Shown here one piece after another: positions 11,641 to 18,581 of a stretch of 64,000 bases of DNA. Below the pieces are notes generated by a model, which worked only from the letters and a program-made list of their open reading frames with translations, ran no database searches and was not told the origin of the DNA. The stretch comes from Caballeronia arationis (GTDB taxonomy: Bacteria > Pseudomonadota > Gammaproteobacteria > Burkholderiales > Burkholderiaceae), in contig NZ_FCOG02000006.1 in assembly GCF_001544975.2 (NCBI RefSeq), positions 1-64,000 of the forward strand. Reading direction: 5' to 3'. Positions within the stretch are counted from its first letter, which is position 1. Every line of letters starts with the position of its first letter. Made by a program: the position numbers and the translations under genes.

Positions 11641-12135
11641 TCAGGTTTCCGTATTCCCCTCATCCACCGGCAACATCTTCGGCACGAAGGCTTCGGCGCG
11701 TTCGCGGATCGCGTCGATTTCGCCGGTCACGAAGGTCCGGTTGTCGGCGGCGAGGGCGCTCTGGTACGACGCGCCTTCCGGCACGCGATGCAACAGCGCG
11801 CGCAATTCGCCTTGCGTCGTCTGCTCGACGGGTTCGAAGTTGTAGAGCCTGAGCATCAGTTCCGCGCGCTCGTGGAGCACGAACAGACACCCGGCGAACA
11901 CCGCGACGCCCAGCACTTCCTGCGCGCCGAAGCGGAATTCGCCTGGCACCGGCGAGAACGGCAGCCACAGGATCACGGCGAGGCCGGCGAGCGCCAGCGC
12001 GATGGTCGCGTTGAGCAGGAGGCCGGTGCGCGCGACGATCCGGTCGCGTTCCGCGCGGAGCTGTCCTGCCGATTTCGGCACGAGAGCGGCGAGGGGTTTC
12101 TGTTGACGGAGTGCAGAGAACGGAAGGGCGGCCAT
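11641..12135 (-). CDS. Two-helix inner-membrane protein of unknown function
   Basis: A 164-residue protein that I do not recognise. A basic N-terminal segment is followed by two membrane helices (about 37-57 and 70-88) separated by a short loop, then a soluble C-terminal tail of about 75 residues rich in Glu and Arg. A GAGG-type ribosome site precedes the ATG at 12135. It is 108 bases downstream of the UdgX-family gene on the same strand, so it could share that gene's SOS-type promoter, and it ends at a clear terminator. No domain points to a function. Confidence 0.72.
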   Translation of the reverse strand: MAALPFSALRQQKPLAALVPKSAGQLRAERDRIVARTGLLLNATIALALAGLAVILWLPFSPVPGEFRFGAQEVLGVAVFAGCLFVLHERAELMLRLYNFEPVEQTTQGELRALLHRVPEGASYQSALAADNRTFVTGEIDAIRERAEAFVPKMLPVDEGNTET

Positions 12136-12243: not shown

Positions 12244-13713
12244 TCACGCCTTGAACGGCGTCCTCACGCTGGCGGTGCCTTCGGCGATCTGGCTCGCGAA
12301 CACGAGCGCCTCGACGATCGTCCCGATCACTTCGTCGCGCACCTTCGGGTCCATCACGCGCAGCGCATACGTCGGATGATAGGTCGGCACGATGAGCCGT
12401 CCGCGATGCTCGATCGTCTTGCCGAGGTACTCCGAGAGCGCCGTGCGATGGCCCGTCAGCGACTTGAGCGCCGTCGCCCCGAGCGCGACGACGACTTTCG
12501 GCGCGATCCGCGTCAGTTCTTCGTCGAGCCAGTAGCGGCAGGCTTCGCGCTCGCGCTGCGCGGGCTGCTGCGGCAGGCGCTCCTTGCCTTGCGCTTCCCA
12601 TTTGAAGTGCTTGAGCGCGTTCGTCAGATAAAGCGACTCACGGGCAAGCCCCGCTTCCTCGATCGCCTGATCGAGCAGCTTGCCCGCCGGCCCGACGAAC
12701 GGCCGGCCCGCCAGGTCCTCCTGATCGCCCGGCTGCTCGCCGACCAGCATGATGCGCGCATCGGCGGGACCCGCGCCCGGAACGGGCTGCGTCGCGTTGC
12801 GCCAGAGCGCGCAGCGCTTGCAGCCGTCGAGCGAGACGGGCTTCGTCTTCAGCGACGGGCCGTCGAGCGGCTCCATGTCGATCGCGACTTCCATCTCCGG
12901 CGGCACATTGCGCGCGCGGCGGTCGCGGCGGGCGGCGGGATCGGCGCGGGCGATCAGCGTGGGATCGCTCTTCGCGTCCGGGCGGCTCTTCCAGTAGCGC
13001 ACCGGCATGTGCGACGCCATTTCCTTCGCGTGGGCGACGGCCGGCGCGAACGTGCTCTCGTAGTACGCGAGCCAGAGCGCTTCGATCGCGTCGCCGCTGA
13101 CCGCCTCGCCCGGCGACGCCAGTTCGGTCGGCTTCGGCTCCGGCTCGCTCGTGCGGTCGACGCGCAAGAGGGCGCCGTCCCAGAACGCCGCGCCGTGCGG
13201 GGTCGCGATCATCCAGGTGGCGCTGCCCATGCGCGTCGCGAAGCCGAGCGCGGCGTGCTCCAGCAAGTCGTGCACCGGCTCGAACCAGCTGATGAACTCG
13301 GGCGGCCCGAGCGACGGATCGCGATGCCGGAAACGCAGGAACTTCTGCATGCGCTCTTCTTCGGCGCGCACGTCGTCGATCATCCGGTTGAAGCGCTGGC
13401 CGTCGGGATCGCCGGCGGAAACGACCGCGCGATCGCCCTGCGTCCAGCGCCAGAGCACCTTGTAGAGGAACGGCCAGCGGTCGCGCACGCGACAGCACGC
13501 GGCCGTCTCCAGAAGCTCCAGAAAGCCGCGCGCGATCTTCACGGGTGGCGGCGCGCCCGGTTCGGCAGGCTCGGCGTCGAGCGTGCCGAACACCGTCGCG
13601 GATTCCGATGCCTCCCGCCACAGCAGCCCCTCGGGCGACACGCCGCGCGCGAGCAGATCGCGCGCGGCGCTGCGCCAGGAGGCAAATGAAGGTTCGATGA
13701 CGACGCTATTCAT
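12244..13713 (-). CDS. UdgX-family uracil-DNA glycosylase fused to an N-terminal DUF4130 domain
   Basis: 489 residues. Residues about 80-250 match DUF4130 (RFNRMIDDVRAEEERMQKFL and following). Residues about 290-475 are a family-4-like uracil-DNA glycosylase: Fe-S cysteines including KRCALWRNATQ, the active-site GEQPGDQEDLAGRPFVGPAG (Gly325 onward), LTNALKHFKW and the C-terminal PTYHPTYALR. In UdgX the KRRIH loop carries the histidine that bonds covalently to uracil; aligned here the loop reads KERLP, placing proline (about residue 381) where that histidine should be. It may thus act as an ordinary glycosylase or a non-covalent binder. A perfect LexA box lies 34 bases upstream, so it should be DNA-damage induced. 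The radical-SAM partner often found with DUF4130 is absent from this window. Confidence 0.88.
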   Translation of the reverse strand: MNSVVIEPSFASWRSAARDLLARGVSPEGLLWREASESATVFGTLDAEPAEPGAPPPVKIARGFLELLETAACCRVRDRWPFLYKVLWRWTQGDRAVVSAGDPDGQRFNRMIDDVRAEEERMQKFLRFRHRDPSLGPPEFISWFEPVHDLLEHAALGFATRMGSATWMIATPHGAAFWDGALLRVDRTSEPEPKPTELASPGEAVSGDAIEALWLAYYESTFAPAVAHAKEMASHMPVRYWKSRPDAKSDPTLIARADPAARRDRRARNVPPEMEVAIDMEPLDGPSLKTKPVSLDGCKRCALWRNATQPVPGAGPADARIMLVGEQPGDQEDLAGRPFVGPAGKLLDQAIEEAGLARESLYLTNALKHFKWEAQGKERLPQQPAQREREACRYWLDEELTRIAPKVVVALGATALKSLTGHRTALSEYLGKTIEHRGRLIVPTYHPTYALRVMDPKVRDEVIGTIVEALVFASQIAEGTASVRTPFKA

Positions 13714-13747: not shown

Positions 13748-13763
13748 CTGTATATGCATACAG
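13748..13763. promoter_or_regulatory. LexA (SOS) box
   Basis: CTGTATATGCATACAG is a perfect 16-base palindrome that matches the LexA consensus CTGT-N8-ACAG exactly. It lies 34 bases before the start of the UdgX-family gene on the minus strand and 182 bases from the plus-strand glycosyltransferase start, so the DNA-repair gene is the natural target. No second box was noticed in the window. Confidence 0.85.
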
Positions 13764-14683: not shown

Positions 14684-15271
14684 CTATCGTCCCGACAAAT
14701 CCGCCGGGAAATCCACGTCCCGCAGGATATTCGGATCGTCGACATCGATCCGCCGCACCGGATTGAGCGCGAGAAGCGAGCGCGCGCCCGCGTCGCCGTC
14801 GAGCGTGCCGAGCGCCTCGCGGTGTGCGCGGCCGAAGCCGACCGGATGCCCGCGCTCGCCGCGATAATACGGCGCGACGAGCGATGTCCCGCCGTCGAGC
14901 GCGCGCGCCACTGCTTCGATCGTCTGCGCTTCGATCCACGGCATGTCGCCAAGCGCGACGAGCCAGCCTTCCGCGTCGGACCTCGCCCGTACGCCGGCCG
15001 CGAGCGTCGCGCCCATGCCGCGCTCGGCATCGATCACGAAGATCACGTCGCAGCCGGCTTCGTTCAGCACGTCGGCGAGTTTTTCGGCGCCGGGCCTGAC
15101 CACCGCGACCACCTGTTCGACCACCGACAGCAGCCGCCGCGCCGACTGGAACACGACCGGCGTGCCATTAGGGAGAGGCGCAAGCAGCTTGTTATGGATA
15201 CCGGACGGATCGAAGCGAGTGCCGAGACCGGCGGCGAGCAGGATGCCGGTCGCGTTCGATGAATAGGTCAT
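14684..15271 (-). CDS. mocA: Molybdenum cofactor cytidylyltransferase
   Basis: A 195-residue nucleotidyltransferase of the MobA/MocA fold. It has the NTP-binding LLAAGLGTRFD loop, NKLLAPL, the metal-binding GDMPWI and a GHPVGF segment, as in MocA. MocA adds CMP to molybdopterin to make the cytosine-dinucleotide form of the cofactor used by xanthine-oxidase-family enzymes. It lies 89 bases after paoC on the same strand, so an operon paoA-paoB-paoC-mocA is likely and explains its role. A separate XdhC/PaoD-type insertion chaperone is not seen here. The start at 15271 begins right before the nucleotide-binding loop, as in the family. Confidence 0.88.
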   Translation of the reverse strand: MTYSSNATGILLAAGLGTRFDPSGIHNKLLAPLPNGTPVVFQSARRLLSVVEQVVAVVRPGAEKLADVLNEAGCDVIFVIDAERGMGATLAAGVRARSDAEGWLVALGDMPWIEAQTIEAVARALDGGTSLVAPYYRGERGHPVGFGRAHREALGTLDGDAGARSLLALNPVRRIDVDDPNILRDVDFPADLSGR

Positions 15272-15360
15272 GGCCGGTCGTCCACGTTGAGGGATGCGTC
15301 GATTGTGCAGTGCGTCGAAGAGGGTCGCAAGGGAGCGCCCGCATGCGCGCCCCTTCGAGG

Positions 15361-17583
15361 TCATACCATCGGCTTTGGCAAGACTTCGTCGAGCGTCACT
15401 GGCAGATCGCGCACGCGCACGCCGGTTGCGTGATACACCGCGTTCGCGATCGCCCCCGACACGCCCGTGATCCCGATCTCGCCGATTCCCCGCGCGCCGA
15501 GCGGATTGATGTGCGGATCGGGCGGACCGACGAACGAAATGTCGAGTTCGCCGATGTCGGCATTCACCGGCACGTGATACTCGGCGAGATTCGCGTTCGT
15601 ATAGCGGCCGTAGCGCGCGTCGAGATCGCTTTTCTCCAGCAGCGCCGAGCCGATGCCCCACACGATGCCGCCCATCAGCTGGCTGTGCGCGGTCTTCGCG
15701 TTCAGCAGCGTGCCGACGTCGTACACGCCGACGATGCGTGCCACCCGGATCGTGCCGAGATCTTCATCGACGTGCACTTCCGCGAACACCGCGCCGAACG
15801 AGTGAAACGAGTACTGCTGCTTCTCGTTGCCCGGCTTGACGGTCGCCGTCGCTTCGATCGGCCGGCCGCCGTTGCGCGCGATGATCGCCGCCGCCGGATC
15901 GCGCTTCGCAGGCGTCGTGCGGCTGACGACCCAGCCGTTGTCGACCGTCACGTCGTCGCGCGACATGCCGGCGAGCGGCGAGCCCGCATCCGCGAGCGCC
16001 ATCGCGATCAGCTGGTCGCGGGCCTGCATCGCCGCCGCCTGCACCGCCGGCGACACGCTCGCGGCCGACTGCGATCCGCCCGACACCGGCGCTTTCGGCA
16101 ACGACGAATCGCCGAGCGCGAAGCGCACGTTCTCGGGCGCGAAGCCGAGCGTGTCGGCGGCGACCTGCGTCATCACCGTGTAGGTGCCGGTGCCGAGATC
16201 CTGCGTGCCCGAGGCGACCATCGCGGTGCCGTCGGGCAGGATGCGCGCGATCGCGGAGGCCTCGCTGCGGTTCGCCGGGTAGGTCGCGGTGGCGACGCCC
16301 ATGCCGATCAGCGTGTGACCGTCGCGCATCGAACGCGGCTTCGGGTTGCGCCGCGCCCAGCCGAATTTCTCGGCGCCGGACTGGTAGCACTCCCGCAGCG
16401 CCTTGCTCGACCACGGCTTCTTTTCCTGCGGCTCGTTTTCCGCGTAGTTCTTCAGGCGAAACGCGAGCGGGTCCATGCGCAACTGATACGCCATCTCGTC
16501 CATCGCGGATTCGAGCGCGAACGAGCCGCTCGTCTCGCCGGGCGCACGCGTGAAGGTCGGCGTGCCGATGTCGAGCTTGACGAGCCGGTGCGACGTCGAC
16601 TGGTTCGGCACCGCGTACATCATCCGCGAGACGATCGCGGAGGTTTCGGTCCAGTCCTCGAAGGTCGAGGTGGTCGAGATCGAGTCGTGGCGCATGCCGG
16701 TGAGCGTGCCGTCCTCGCGCGCGGCCACCTGGATGCGCTGCTCGGTGAACGGCCGGTTGCCGATGATGCCCCACATCTGCGGACGTTCGAGCACGAGCCG
16801 CACGGGGCGCCCGGTCTGCTTCGCGGCCATCGCGGCGAGCACGACGTGCGACCACACCGAGCCCTTGCAGCCGAAGCCGCCGCCGACGAACGGGCAGATC
16901 ACCCGCACGTTCGCTTCCGGAATCCCGAGGATCTTCGACACCGCGCTCTTCGCGCCTGACACGCCTTGCGTGGCGTCGTAGAGCGTGAGATTCGGGCCGT
17001 CCCAGCGCGCGAGCGTCGCGTGCGGCTCCATCGGATTGTGATGCTCGTAAGGCGTCGTGTAGACGGCATCGAGCCGCGTCGGACCCTGGCTCAGACCGGC
17101 ATCGGCGTCGCCGCGCGAGGTGTTCACCGGGCGGTTGTTCATCTTCTGCGGCGAGTAGGCGGAAGCCTTCGCGCGCTCGAAGTCCGCGTTCGGCGCGGCG
17201 GCTTCGTAGCGCACCTGCACGTGGCGTGCGGCATCGACGGCGCGTTCCCGCGTATCCGCGACCACGACGGCCACCGGCTCGCCGCTGTAGCGCACGTCGC
17301 TGGTCTGCAGGAGCGTGAGCTTGCGCACGGCGGGCGGCTGCGCGTCGGGGTTGCCGCCGTTCGGCAGCCGCATCGCCGTCTGGTAAGTCATGACGAGCAG
17401 CACGCCCGGCATTGCCTGTGCGCCGGATATCTCGATCGACGCGATCCGGCCTTTCGCAATCGTGCTCGTCACGATGACTGCGTGCGCGAGCATCGACTCG
17501 GGGTTGTCGGCCGAATAGCGGGCCTGGCCGGTGACTTTGAGCACGCCGTCGGTGCGGTCGAGCGGTTTTCCGATGACGCTCAT
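15361..17583 (-). CDS. paoC: Periplasmic aldehyde oxidoreductase, molybdenum-binding subunit
   Basis: A 740-residue xanthine-oxidase-family large subunit, close to E. coli PaoC. It carries the aldehyde-oxidase a/b hammerhead domain (about 15-125) and the two molybdopterin-binding domains, with [24 protein letters not shown] and the C-terminal [16 protein letters not shown] that supplies the catalytic glutamate. It should oxidise aldehydes, probably aromatic ones, to acids in the periplasm. It has no signal peptide itself, as expected if it travels through the Tat system folded together with PaoA. Its ATG overlaps the stop of paoB (ATGA), which indicates translational coupling. Confidence 0.92.
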
Positions 17584-18581
17584 GCTGCACCTCCTGCCTG
17601 CGCTCCGGCTTGTTCGACCGCGCGCACGATCGCCCGCTGCGCGAGTTCGACCTTGAACGCGTTGTCGCGATACGGCTTCGCACCGCGCACCGCGAGCGCG
17701 GCCGCGCTTTGCAGCGTCGCGCGGGAGAGCGGCTTGCCGGCGAGCATCTGTTCCGCCTCGCTCGCGCGCCACGGCTTGTGCGCGACGCCGCCGAGCGCGA
17801 TGCGCGCTGTCTTTACGGTGTCGCCGTCCATTTCCAGCGCGGCCGCGACCGAAACCAGCGCGAACGCGTAGCTCGCGCGGTCGCGCACTTTCAGGTATTT
17901 CGCGTGCTGCGCGAAGCGCGACGGCGGCAGATCGACGGCCGTGATGAGTTCGCCCGGCTGCAGCGTCGTGTCGAGTTCGGGCCGCTCGCCCGGCAGGCGA
18001 TGGAATTCAGCGATCGGAATCGCGCGCTCGCCTCTCGGGCCGGACACGCGCACGACGGCTTCGAGCGCCGCCAGCGCGACGCTCATGTCGGACGGATTGG
18101 TCGCGATGCACTGCGCGCTTGCGCCGAGGATCGCGTGGATGCGGTTGTTGCCTTCCAGCGCGGCGCAGCCGCTGCCGGGCGTGCGCTTGTTGCACTGGGG
18201 AAAACCGGTGTCGTAGAAGTAATAGCAGCGCGTGCGCTGCATCAGGTTGCCGCCGACGGTCGCCATGTTGCGCAGTTGCGCCGACGCGCCCGCCAGAAAC
18301 GCCTGCGACAGCAGCGGGTAGCGCTCCCGCACCCATGCGTGATTGGCTGCGTCGCTGTTGCGGGCGAGCGCGCCGATGCGCAGTCCGCCGTCGGGCAGGG
18401 GCGTGATCCGGTCCATGCCGTCGATATGCGTGATGTCGACGAGCTTCACCGGCCGCGCGACGCCGCCCTTCATCAGGTCGAGCAGGTTGGTGCCGCCGCC
18501 GATGAACACCACGCCCGGCTGGCTAGCCGAGCGGATTGCCGCGGCCGCGTCGGGCGCGCGTTCGTAGGAGATCGCATCCAT
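17580..18581 (-). CDS. paoB: Periplasmic aldehyde oxidoreductase, FAD-binding subunit
   Basis: 333 residues. The N-terminal half has the FAD-binding [14 protein letters not shown] and [13 protein letters not shown]; the C-terminal CO-dehydrogenase flavoprotein domain follows. Between them lies a cysteine-bearing insertion ([11 protein letters not shown], with nearby RC and AQC) that in E. coli PaoB binds an extra [4Fe-4S] cluster; all candidate ligands are present here. The ATG at 18581 has AGGAG upstream. The gene starts 8 bases after paoA ends and overlaps paoC, so the three subunits are made together. Confidence 0.92.

Follow-up and report, generated by a model that had tools for sequence, protein, structure and literature searches.

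The reverse-strand gene at positions 12,244 to 13,713 encodes a DUF4130-UdgX fusion protein that has proline where UdgX carries the histidine that bonds covalently to DNA. The window denotes the whole 64,000-nucleotide stretch of DNA from the soil bacterium Caballeronia arationis that was analysed, and the gene and its product are termed the window gene and the window protein. A His-linked covalent adduct of the known type is excluded for the window protein, as far as its residues tell. The explanation that we hold with modest confidence, as judged from sequence, is that the gene represents an SOS-controlled, DUF4130-fused UdgX paralogue that gave up the covalent capture of uracil sites. Because the H109 signature of UdgX failed in this protein, it is provisionally filed as a UdgX-derived paralogue and not as a functional UdgX, and it would work at most like an H109 mutant.

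Domain layout of the window gene

The window protein scored 231.5 bits against TIGR03914 (UdgX; NCBI curated cut-off 189.95) and 142.3 bits against TIGR03915 (DUF4130; curated cut-off 112.25). The UDG and DUF4130 families of Pfam were both matched as well (DUF4130 with 82.1 against a cut-off of 27). The score against TIGR00758 was 130.8 bits, barely over the cut-off of 125.3, and reflects kinship with the family 4 UDG. Family 4 (UDGa; L001 in the host genome) is the nearest conventional family and consists of turnover glycosylases. Its members have GE(A/G)PG and no R-loop whereas the window protein has GEQPG and an R-loop, so it falls outside that family. The UdgX-type identity is retained from the original prediction, with the TIGR03914 score over the curated cut-off, GEQPG with Q53, and the R107 equivalent. 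The features of the locus are as follows.

11641..12135, reverse strand: small putative membrane protein, next gene downstream (by eye)
12244..13713, reverse strand: DUF4130-UdgX fusion gene of the paralogue termed group A, 489 aa (open reading frame, NCBIfam, Pfam)
12307..12861, reverse strand: UdgX-type uracil-DNA glycosylase domain, residues 285-469 (NCBIfam, HMMER)
12358..12378, reverse strand: motif B HPTYALR, residues 446-452, equivalents of H178 and R184 (alignment)
12538..12540, reverse strand: Cys392, one of three aligned cysteines (alignment)
12571..12585, reverse strand: R-loop KERLP, residues 377-381, where R379 is the R107 equivalent and P381 the H109 equivalent (translation, alignment)
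12571-12573, reverse strand: codon CCG of P381 (translation)
12610..12624, reverse strand: TNALK, residues 364-368, equivalents of N91 and K94 (alignment)
12715..12741, reverse strand: motif A GEQPGDQED, residues 325-333, equivalents of E52, Q53, D56, and D59 (alignment)
12820-12822 and 12811-12813, reverse strand: C298 and C301, the remaining two aligned cysteines (alignment)
12985..13698, reverse strand: DUF4130 / TIGR03915 domain, residues 6-243 (NCBIfam, Pfam)
13748..13763: palindromic LexA/SOS-type box CTGTATATGCATACAG, an exact CTGTN8ACAG, 34 bp before the start codon
14684..15253, reverse strand: MocA/MobA-like nucleotidyltransferase, start approximate, conserved neighbour (NCBIfam matches below curated cut-offs)

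The NCBIfam search with the small putative membrane protein gave zero matches. Positions 14684-17772 of the window, upstream on the same strand, hold the MocA-like nucleotidyltransferase and a PaoC/XdhA-like molybdenum oxidoreductase, the latter also below NCBIfam cut-offs.

The missing histidine

The HMMER alignment of the window protein to the crystal sequences of Mycobacterium smegmatis UdgX (MsmUdgX) pairs R379 with R107 and P381 with position 109. The alignment is gapless at this site, and a two-residue gap lies upstream only. The whole stretch between the KHFKW motif and QREREAC was read and contains no histidine, so no realignment can put one in the loop. The window protein also has the equivalents of D56, D59, F65, N91, K94, R107, H178, and R184 together with the three aligned cysteines. 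The original prediction had described KERLP with proline at about residue 381 in the place of the histidine, and the other active-site motifs and Fe-S cysteines as intact; both statements hold for the loop at 12571-12585 and for the catalytic residues and cysteines that were scored.

The solved relatives that are best by sequence are the MsmUdgX structures (PDB 6AIL, 6IO9, and 8IIE). Like MsmUdgX, the window protein has GEQPG, R107, D56/D59, N91, K94, H178, and R184. Unlike MsmUdgX, it lacks H109, has E at R106, is fused to DUF4130, and has no known adduct. The MsmUdgX H109 mutants (8IIO, 8IIP, and others) are the laboratory counterpart of this natural protein in that the R-loop is kept, the histidine is replaced, and E52 is kept, but they are engineered and their loop is otherwise KRRI.

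The host genome is a 9.38-Mb draft in 629 contigs, which is the one point that speaks for P381 being a sequencing or assembly error. This explanation has next to no probability and is refuted by C. telluris LMG 22936 (L039), which carries the identical KERLP loop with the same CCG codon, and Q or L is found in six more genomes. This strain is also the nearest of the nine named relatives that were found, all of which are Caballeronia, with 97% identity over the protein.

The AlphaFold2 model of the full protein from 10 alignment rows has a mean pLDDT of 50.5 with the R-loop below 50, and such unreliable loop geometry would leave room for covalent capture through another residue. This persistence of capture is nevertheless very improbable. 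The segment LPQQPA around position 109 is without His, Lys, or Cys, and substitution of H109 abolishes the adduct in MsmUdgX in the text available of PMC10776899 and PMC10359453. All 221 intact domains have H369 of the KHFKW motif, and because this residue co-occurs with H109 in 213 of them, it is no stand-in for the missing one.

Residue 109 among the group A orthologues

Group A comprises the full-length copies that are 72-100% identical to the window protein. Of the 58 genomes of the genus that were searched, 35 have such a copy, and 57 have any match. Residue 109 is H in 27 of these 35 proteins, Q in four, P in two, and L in two. It is H in all 186 other unique UdgX domains that were sampled. 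Those domains were drawn from the genus, a family sample (249 genomes), and a phylum sample (299 genomes), and the domains read are the best matches and chosen regions of those samples. One family-4 UDG, four broken pieces, and four loci without a UdgX-like domain were left out of the count. The absence of the histidine in 8/35 against 0/186 gives a Fisher p of 1.9e-7, which is only descriptive because the rows are related.

The residues E52, Q53, D56, D59, F65, N91, K94, R107, H178, and R184 are kept in 35/35 group A proteins, and the three aligned cysteines are kept by the eight non-His and the 27 other members. Seven of the eight non-His genomes have one or more further UdgX proteins with a His loop; in the eighth, G014, only a broken paralogue B (described below) was found as another UdgX. 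The group A protein of G014 (L053), which has Q at 109, also shows HT for HP in motif B. The radical SAM match of this genome is in pieces.

The neighbourhood of group A was compared over 39 loci from 30 genomes and nine named records, eight of which repeat genomes by coordinates. The gene for the small putative membrane protein adjoins the group A gene in 39/39 loci. Of the 39 loci, 32 have a glycosyltransferase gene nearby and 30 have the MocA-like gene, which are counts limited by flank length. A functional tie between the UdgX gene and the MocA-like and molybdenum oxidoreductase genes is possible. One scan of viral contigs found no relative, and the plasmid search gave 435 records with a match, whose loops stand outside this tally.

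Repeated loss of the histidine

For the protein tree, the columns of the loop were taken out and paralogue B was included. On this tree, three changes of the non-His label are required, which are forced by its starred branches, and on the bootstrap trees three to four. A single clade for all eight non-His proteins is rejected (AU p 6.4e-5), and four residue changes are required when paralogue B is set as H. Most simply, the histidine would have been lost three separate times within group A. The mapping of one KERLP subfamily, as had been proposed, does not fit this pattern: the loss is recurrent (P, Q, and L) within one paralogue, and KERLP as one fixed subfamily is rejected on the tree.

Two of the losses are nested in His-bearing clades, namely G006 with G012 (L) and G014 (Q). 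The third non-His set is basal in group A and consists of the window protein and those of telluris, terrestris, humi, and glathei (P and Q). The basal P/Q state is counted as a loss because paralogue B and the sister lineage have the histidine, and support for the unity of this set is weak (88/68 in the tree that retains the loop). The codon at 109 in this group is CAG in 3/3 members with Q and CCG in 2/2 members with P, one transversion away from CAG. Q before P is therefore the simplest path, and Q may have preceded P at this residue.

Remodelling of the R-loop and selection on the UDG domain

The original prediction located the difference in the change from histidine to proline. P381 is present, but the change in the loop is wider. 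Residue 106 is E in 35/35 group A proteins and in 0/186 others, 169 of which have R. K is absent at residue 110 throughout group A, whereas 142/186 others have it. The net charge of the nine loop residues has a mean of -0.74 in group A versus +3.82 in the other UdgX proteins; it is about +1 in the P members, the window protein included, and in three other group A members. L018 (G006) and L034 (G012) have 12 residues before R107, where six are usual, together with the change from His to Leu. Since the loop is altered across the whole of group A, we infer that the paralogue left the KRRxH loop before the histidine was lost.

In a two-ratio codon model of the UDG domain (166 codons), omega is 0.084 on the non-His branches and 0.091 on the rest (2dlnL 0.29). 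For DUF4130, omega is 0.099 on the non-His branches and 0.099 on the rest. The model is self-written, with 10 foreground branches and branch lengths fixed at the one-ratio estimates; in its rooted nucleotide tree the P/Q group did not come out as a single clade, and the stem of G000 and G051 was counted as background. Because omega is no higher on the non-His branches than on the rest, the UDG domain looks constrained after the loss, and no relaxed selection is seen. The NG86 pairwise values for the UDG domain are low, where those of non-His pairs (0.02-0.33) lie slightly above the others (0.07-0.23).

These values bear on the explanation that the UDG domain is decaying while selection acts on DUF4130 alone. 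The loop taken by itself has dN/dS above 1 in two pairs, G006-G012 (1.31) and G056-G014 (2.21), over 19 and 13 codons, and broken copies exist in G002, G004, and G018, both of which would fit decay. It is an improbable explanation all the same, as the UDG domain has an omega no higher than DUF4130 and shows no rise on the non-His branches, and the remaining scored catalytic residues are invariant in group A. The three broken copies, L055 (G002), L054 (G004), and L056 (G018), come from small genomes (3.5-4.2 Mb) and were excluded from the counts. Two of the three retain the exact LexA-type box.

The LexA-type box

The box at 13748-13763 is the sole exact CTGTN8ACAG in the 64-kb window, where matches with one mismatch occur at chance level. 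CTGTN8ACAG is the operator form printed for beta/gamma-proteobacteria in the available text of PMC4151985. An exact box precedes 35/35 group A genes, all eight non-His genes included, and 30 group A loci with a total of 134 kb hold 30 exact boxes. It also precedes 9/9 genes of the sister lineage described below, at 12-146 bp from the aligned start. LexA would thus control the window gene via this putative box. An exact box also stands directly before the operon of the radical SAM gene and paralogue B in the host genome, and none was found in the paralogue C, family-4, and Ung-like loci examined.

Other UDG genes of the host genome

Seven further PF03167 matches are found in the host genome. 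Paralogue B is a second DUF4130-UdgX fusion with the loop KRRLH, and paralogue C is a standalone UdgX with the loop KRRMH; both have the histidine. Two more matches read as a family-4 type UDG (L001) and an Ung-like protein. Paralogue B (G000 C584) has the same domain order as the window protein, with 48% identity to it, and shares with the window gene the exact LexA-type box. It differs in its complete KRRLH loop and in that it adjoins a TIGR03916 radical SAM gene. That gene is the only TIGR03916 match of the host genome and lies on another contig than the window gene, so the window locus has no adjacent TIGR03916 gene of the kind that defines the rSAM-DUF4130-UDG operon.

Of the 35 group A genomes, 31 have a radical SAM gene that scores over the cut-off; the gene is split and below the cut-off in G014 and G056, and was not found in G010 and G024. 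Dependence of group A on a radical SAM partner is unsupported, as group A is present in the latter two.

The sister lineage

Group A, represented by 10 of the 101 rows, forms one clade (100/98) in the UDG-domain tree. This clade joins (98/91) DUF4130-UdgX proteins from a further two genera of the family, which have the codes g20 and g13. Nine such sister proteins came from an additional search of 249 genomes, namely L280-L284 and L309 (g20) and L285-L287 (g13). Six sister loci were compared over 11-kb stretches. The MocA-like gene is near in all six and the molybdenum oxidoreductase gene in four, and the radical SAM gene is absent from all six stretches. It is present at the more distant loci L275-L277. 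In some of the sister loci, L268 among them, the MocA-like gene is directly followed by the UdgX gene.

The sister proteins keep H109 in 9/9, have E at D56 in 9/9, and have N, A, or E at D59 in 9/9. N91 is Tyr in 6/6 members of g20, together with D59N. The three members of g13 have D59A or D59E, and one has R107H and one F65L. In the text available of PMC10776899, activity is undetected for MsmUdgX N91A, D59A, and R107A, where D59A and R107A fold poorly. The dN/dS of the UDG domain is 0.09-0.16 in five of six sister pairs and 0.27 in the sixth. With changes at N91 and D59 in the sister genera and at H109 and R106 in Caballeronia, the chemistry of UdgX has been altered piecewise by genus in one MocA-linked gene. 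The N91Y proteins possibly have a different base specificity.

In the wider collection, L242, L245, L246, and L247 have complete RRIH/RRLH loops and lack the three aligned cysteines, with HYRWW where others have AC. They are perhaps UdgX proteins without a 4Fe-4S cluster.

Proposed excision without capture and the competing explanation

In UdgX, N91 and H178 pull the uracil, and H109, once activated by E52, forms the bond with the sugar at C1', according to the text available of PMC10359453 and PMC10776899. As printed in the former, MsmUdgX with H109A, H109S, H109G, H109Q, H109C, or H109K loses the adduct and gains conventional UDG activity, which bears out the statement of the original prediction on the mycobacterial histidine mutant. 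There, kcat/Km of H109Q is 0.123e-3 per min per nM and is called poor, and H109K is almost inactive, so activity depends on the residue at 109. The six substitutions given there include neither Pro nor Leu. Four of the eight non-His orthologues carry Q, the same residue as in the H109Q mutant. Since the H109 mutants, Q included, are slow conventional UDGs, the window protein is expected to excise or bind uracil but not to form the His-linked adduct. The evidence separates poorly between the two expected outcomes, excision with no capture and binding with little excision. The suggestion of a normal glycosylase or a new variant thus has a precedent in the H109 mutants, and a normal glycosylase is one of two live readings.

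In the excision reading, the change of the loop would have come first and the loss of the histidine later. The UDG domain would still flip out and excise uracil, with E326 (E52) activating water in place of the histidine. Turnover would be slow, and an abasic site would be released instead of an irreversible protein-DNA adduct. LexA would govern the gene, and DUF4130 would act on the same damaged DNA or deliver the protein there. In favour of this reading are P381 at position 109, the conserved catalytic residues, the UDG activity of the H109 mutants together with Q in four orthologues, the omega that is not raised on the non-His branches, the three changes on the tree, and the exact box before all 35 genes.

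A family-4 UDG and an Ung-like gene are already in the genome, so the need for one more slow UDG is not evident. HT in motif B of the G014 orthologue and the slightly higher NG86 values of the non-His pairs in the UDG domain also count against the excision reading. Moreover, N91 is Tyr in sister proteins and N91A kills MsmUdgX, which suggests, against this reading, that uracil excision may not be the task of the orthologous family. The UDG domain may instead have taken on a new role, as a non-covalent reader or with another base as its target, in which it would bind uracil, an abasic site, or other damage without useful excision and DUF4130 would do the work. We regard this as a weaker candidate, though a serious one. 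The MocA-linked branches lose different essentials of UdgX (R106E/H109; N91Y with D59N; D59A/E, R107H, and F65L) under the low dN/dS of the sister pairs (0.09-0.16, and 0.27 in the sixth), and group A persists in G010 and G024, the two genomes in which the search gave no radical SAM gene. Against it, the scored residues of the uracil pocket are intact in 35/35 Caballeronia proteins and the histidine is still present in 27/35.

A broader and tentative reading is that an SOS-induced UDG branch in Burkholderiaceae, the MocA-linked DUF4130-UdgX proteins, derived from a cross-linking UdgX and swapped suicide capture for another DNA transaction. It is equally tentative that the genera of this distinct branch altered separate pieces of the covalent machinery, H109/R106 (Caballeronia), N91/D59 (g20), and D59/R107 (g13), and that the substrate of the N91Y proteins is possibly not uracil.

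Significance for the UdgX family

R107 and H109 are the UdgX signature in the available text of PMC10359453, where the UdgX set was filtered on both, so proteins like the window protein would be dropped. No natural UdgX without H109 is described in the available text of PMC10359453 and PMC10776899, the papers on UdgX enzymology found in the open literature. The NCBI model names the window protein UdgX, which implies a suicide capture of uracil that it cannot perform in the known way. The physiological role of UdgX is called largely unknown in PMC10359453. The natural P, Q, and L variants and their His orthologues at the same locus are a comparative set on the purpose of the covalent step, and the LexA-type box suggests DNA damage as a testable condition for the UdgX family.
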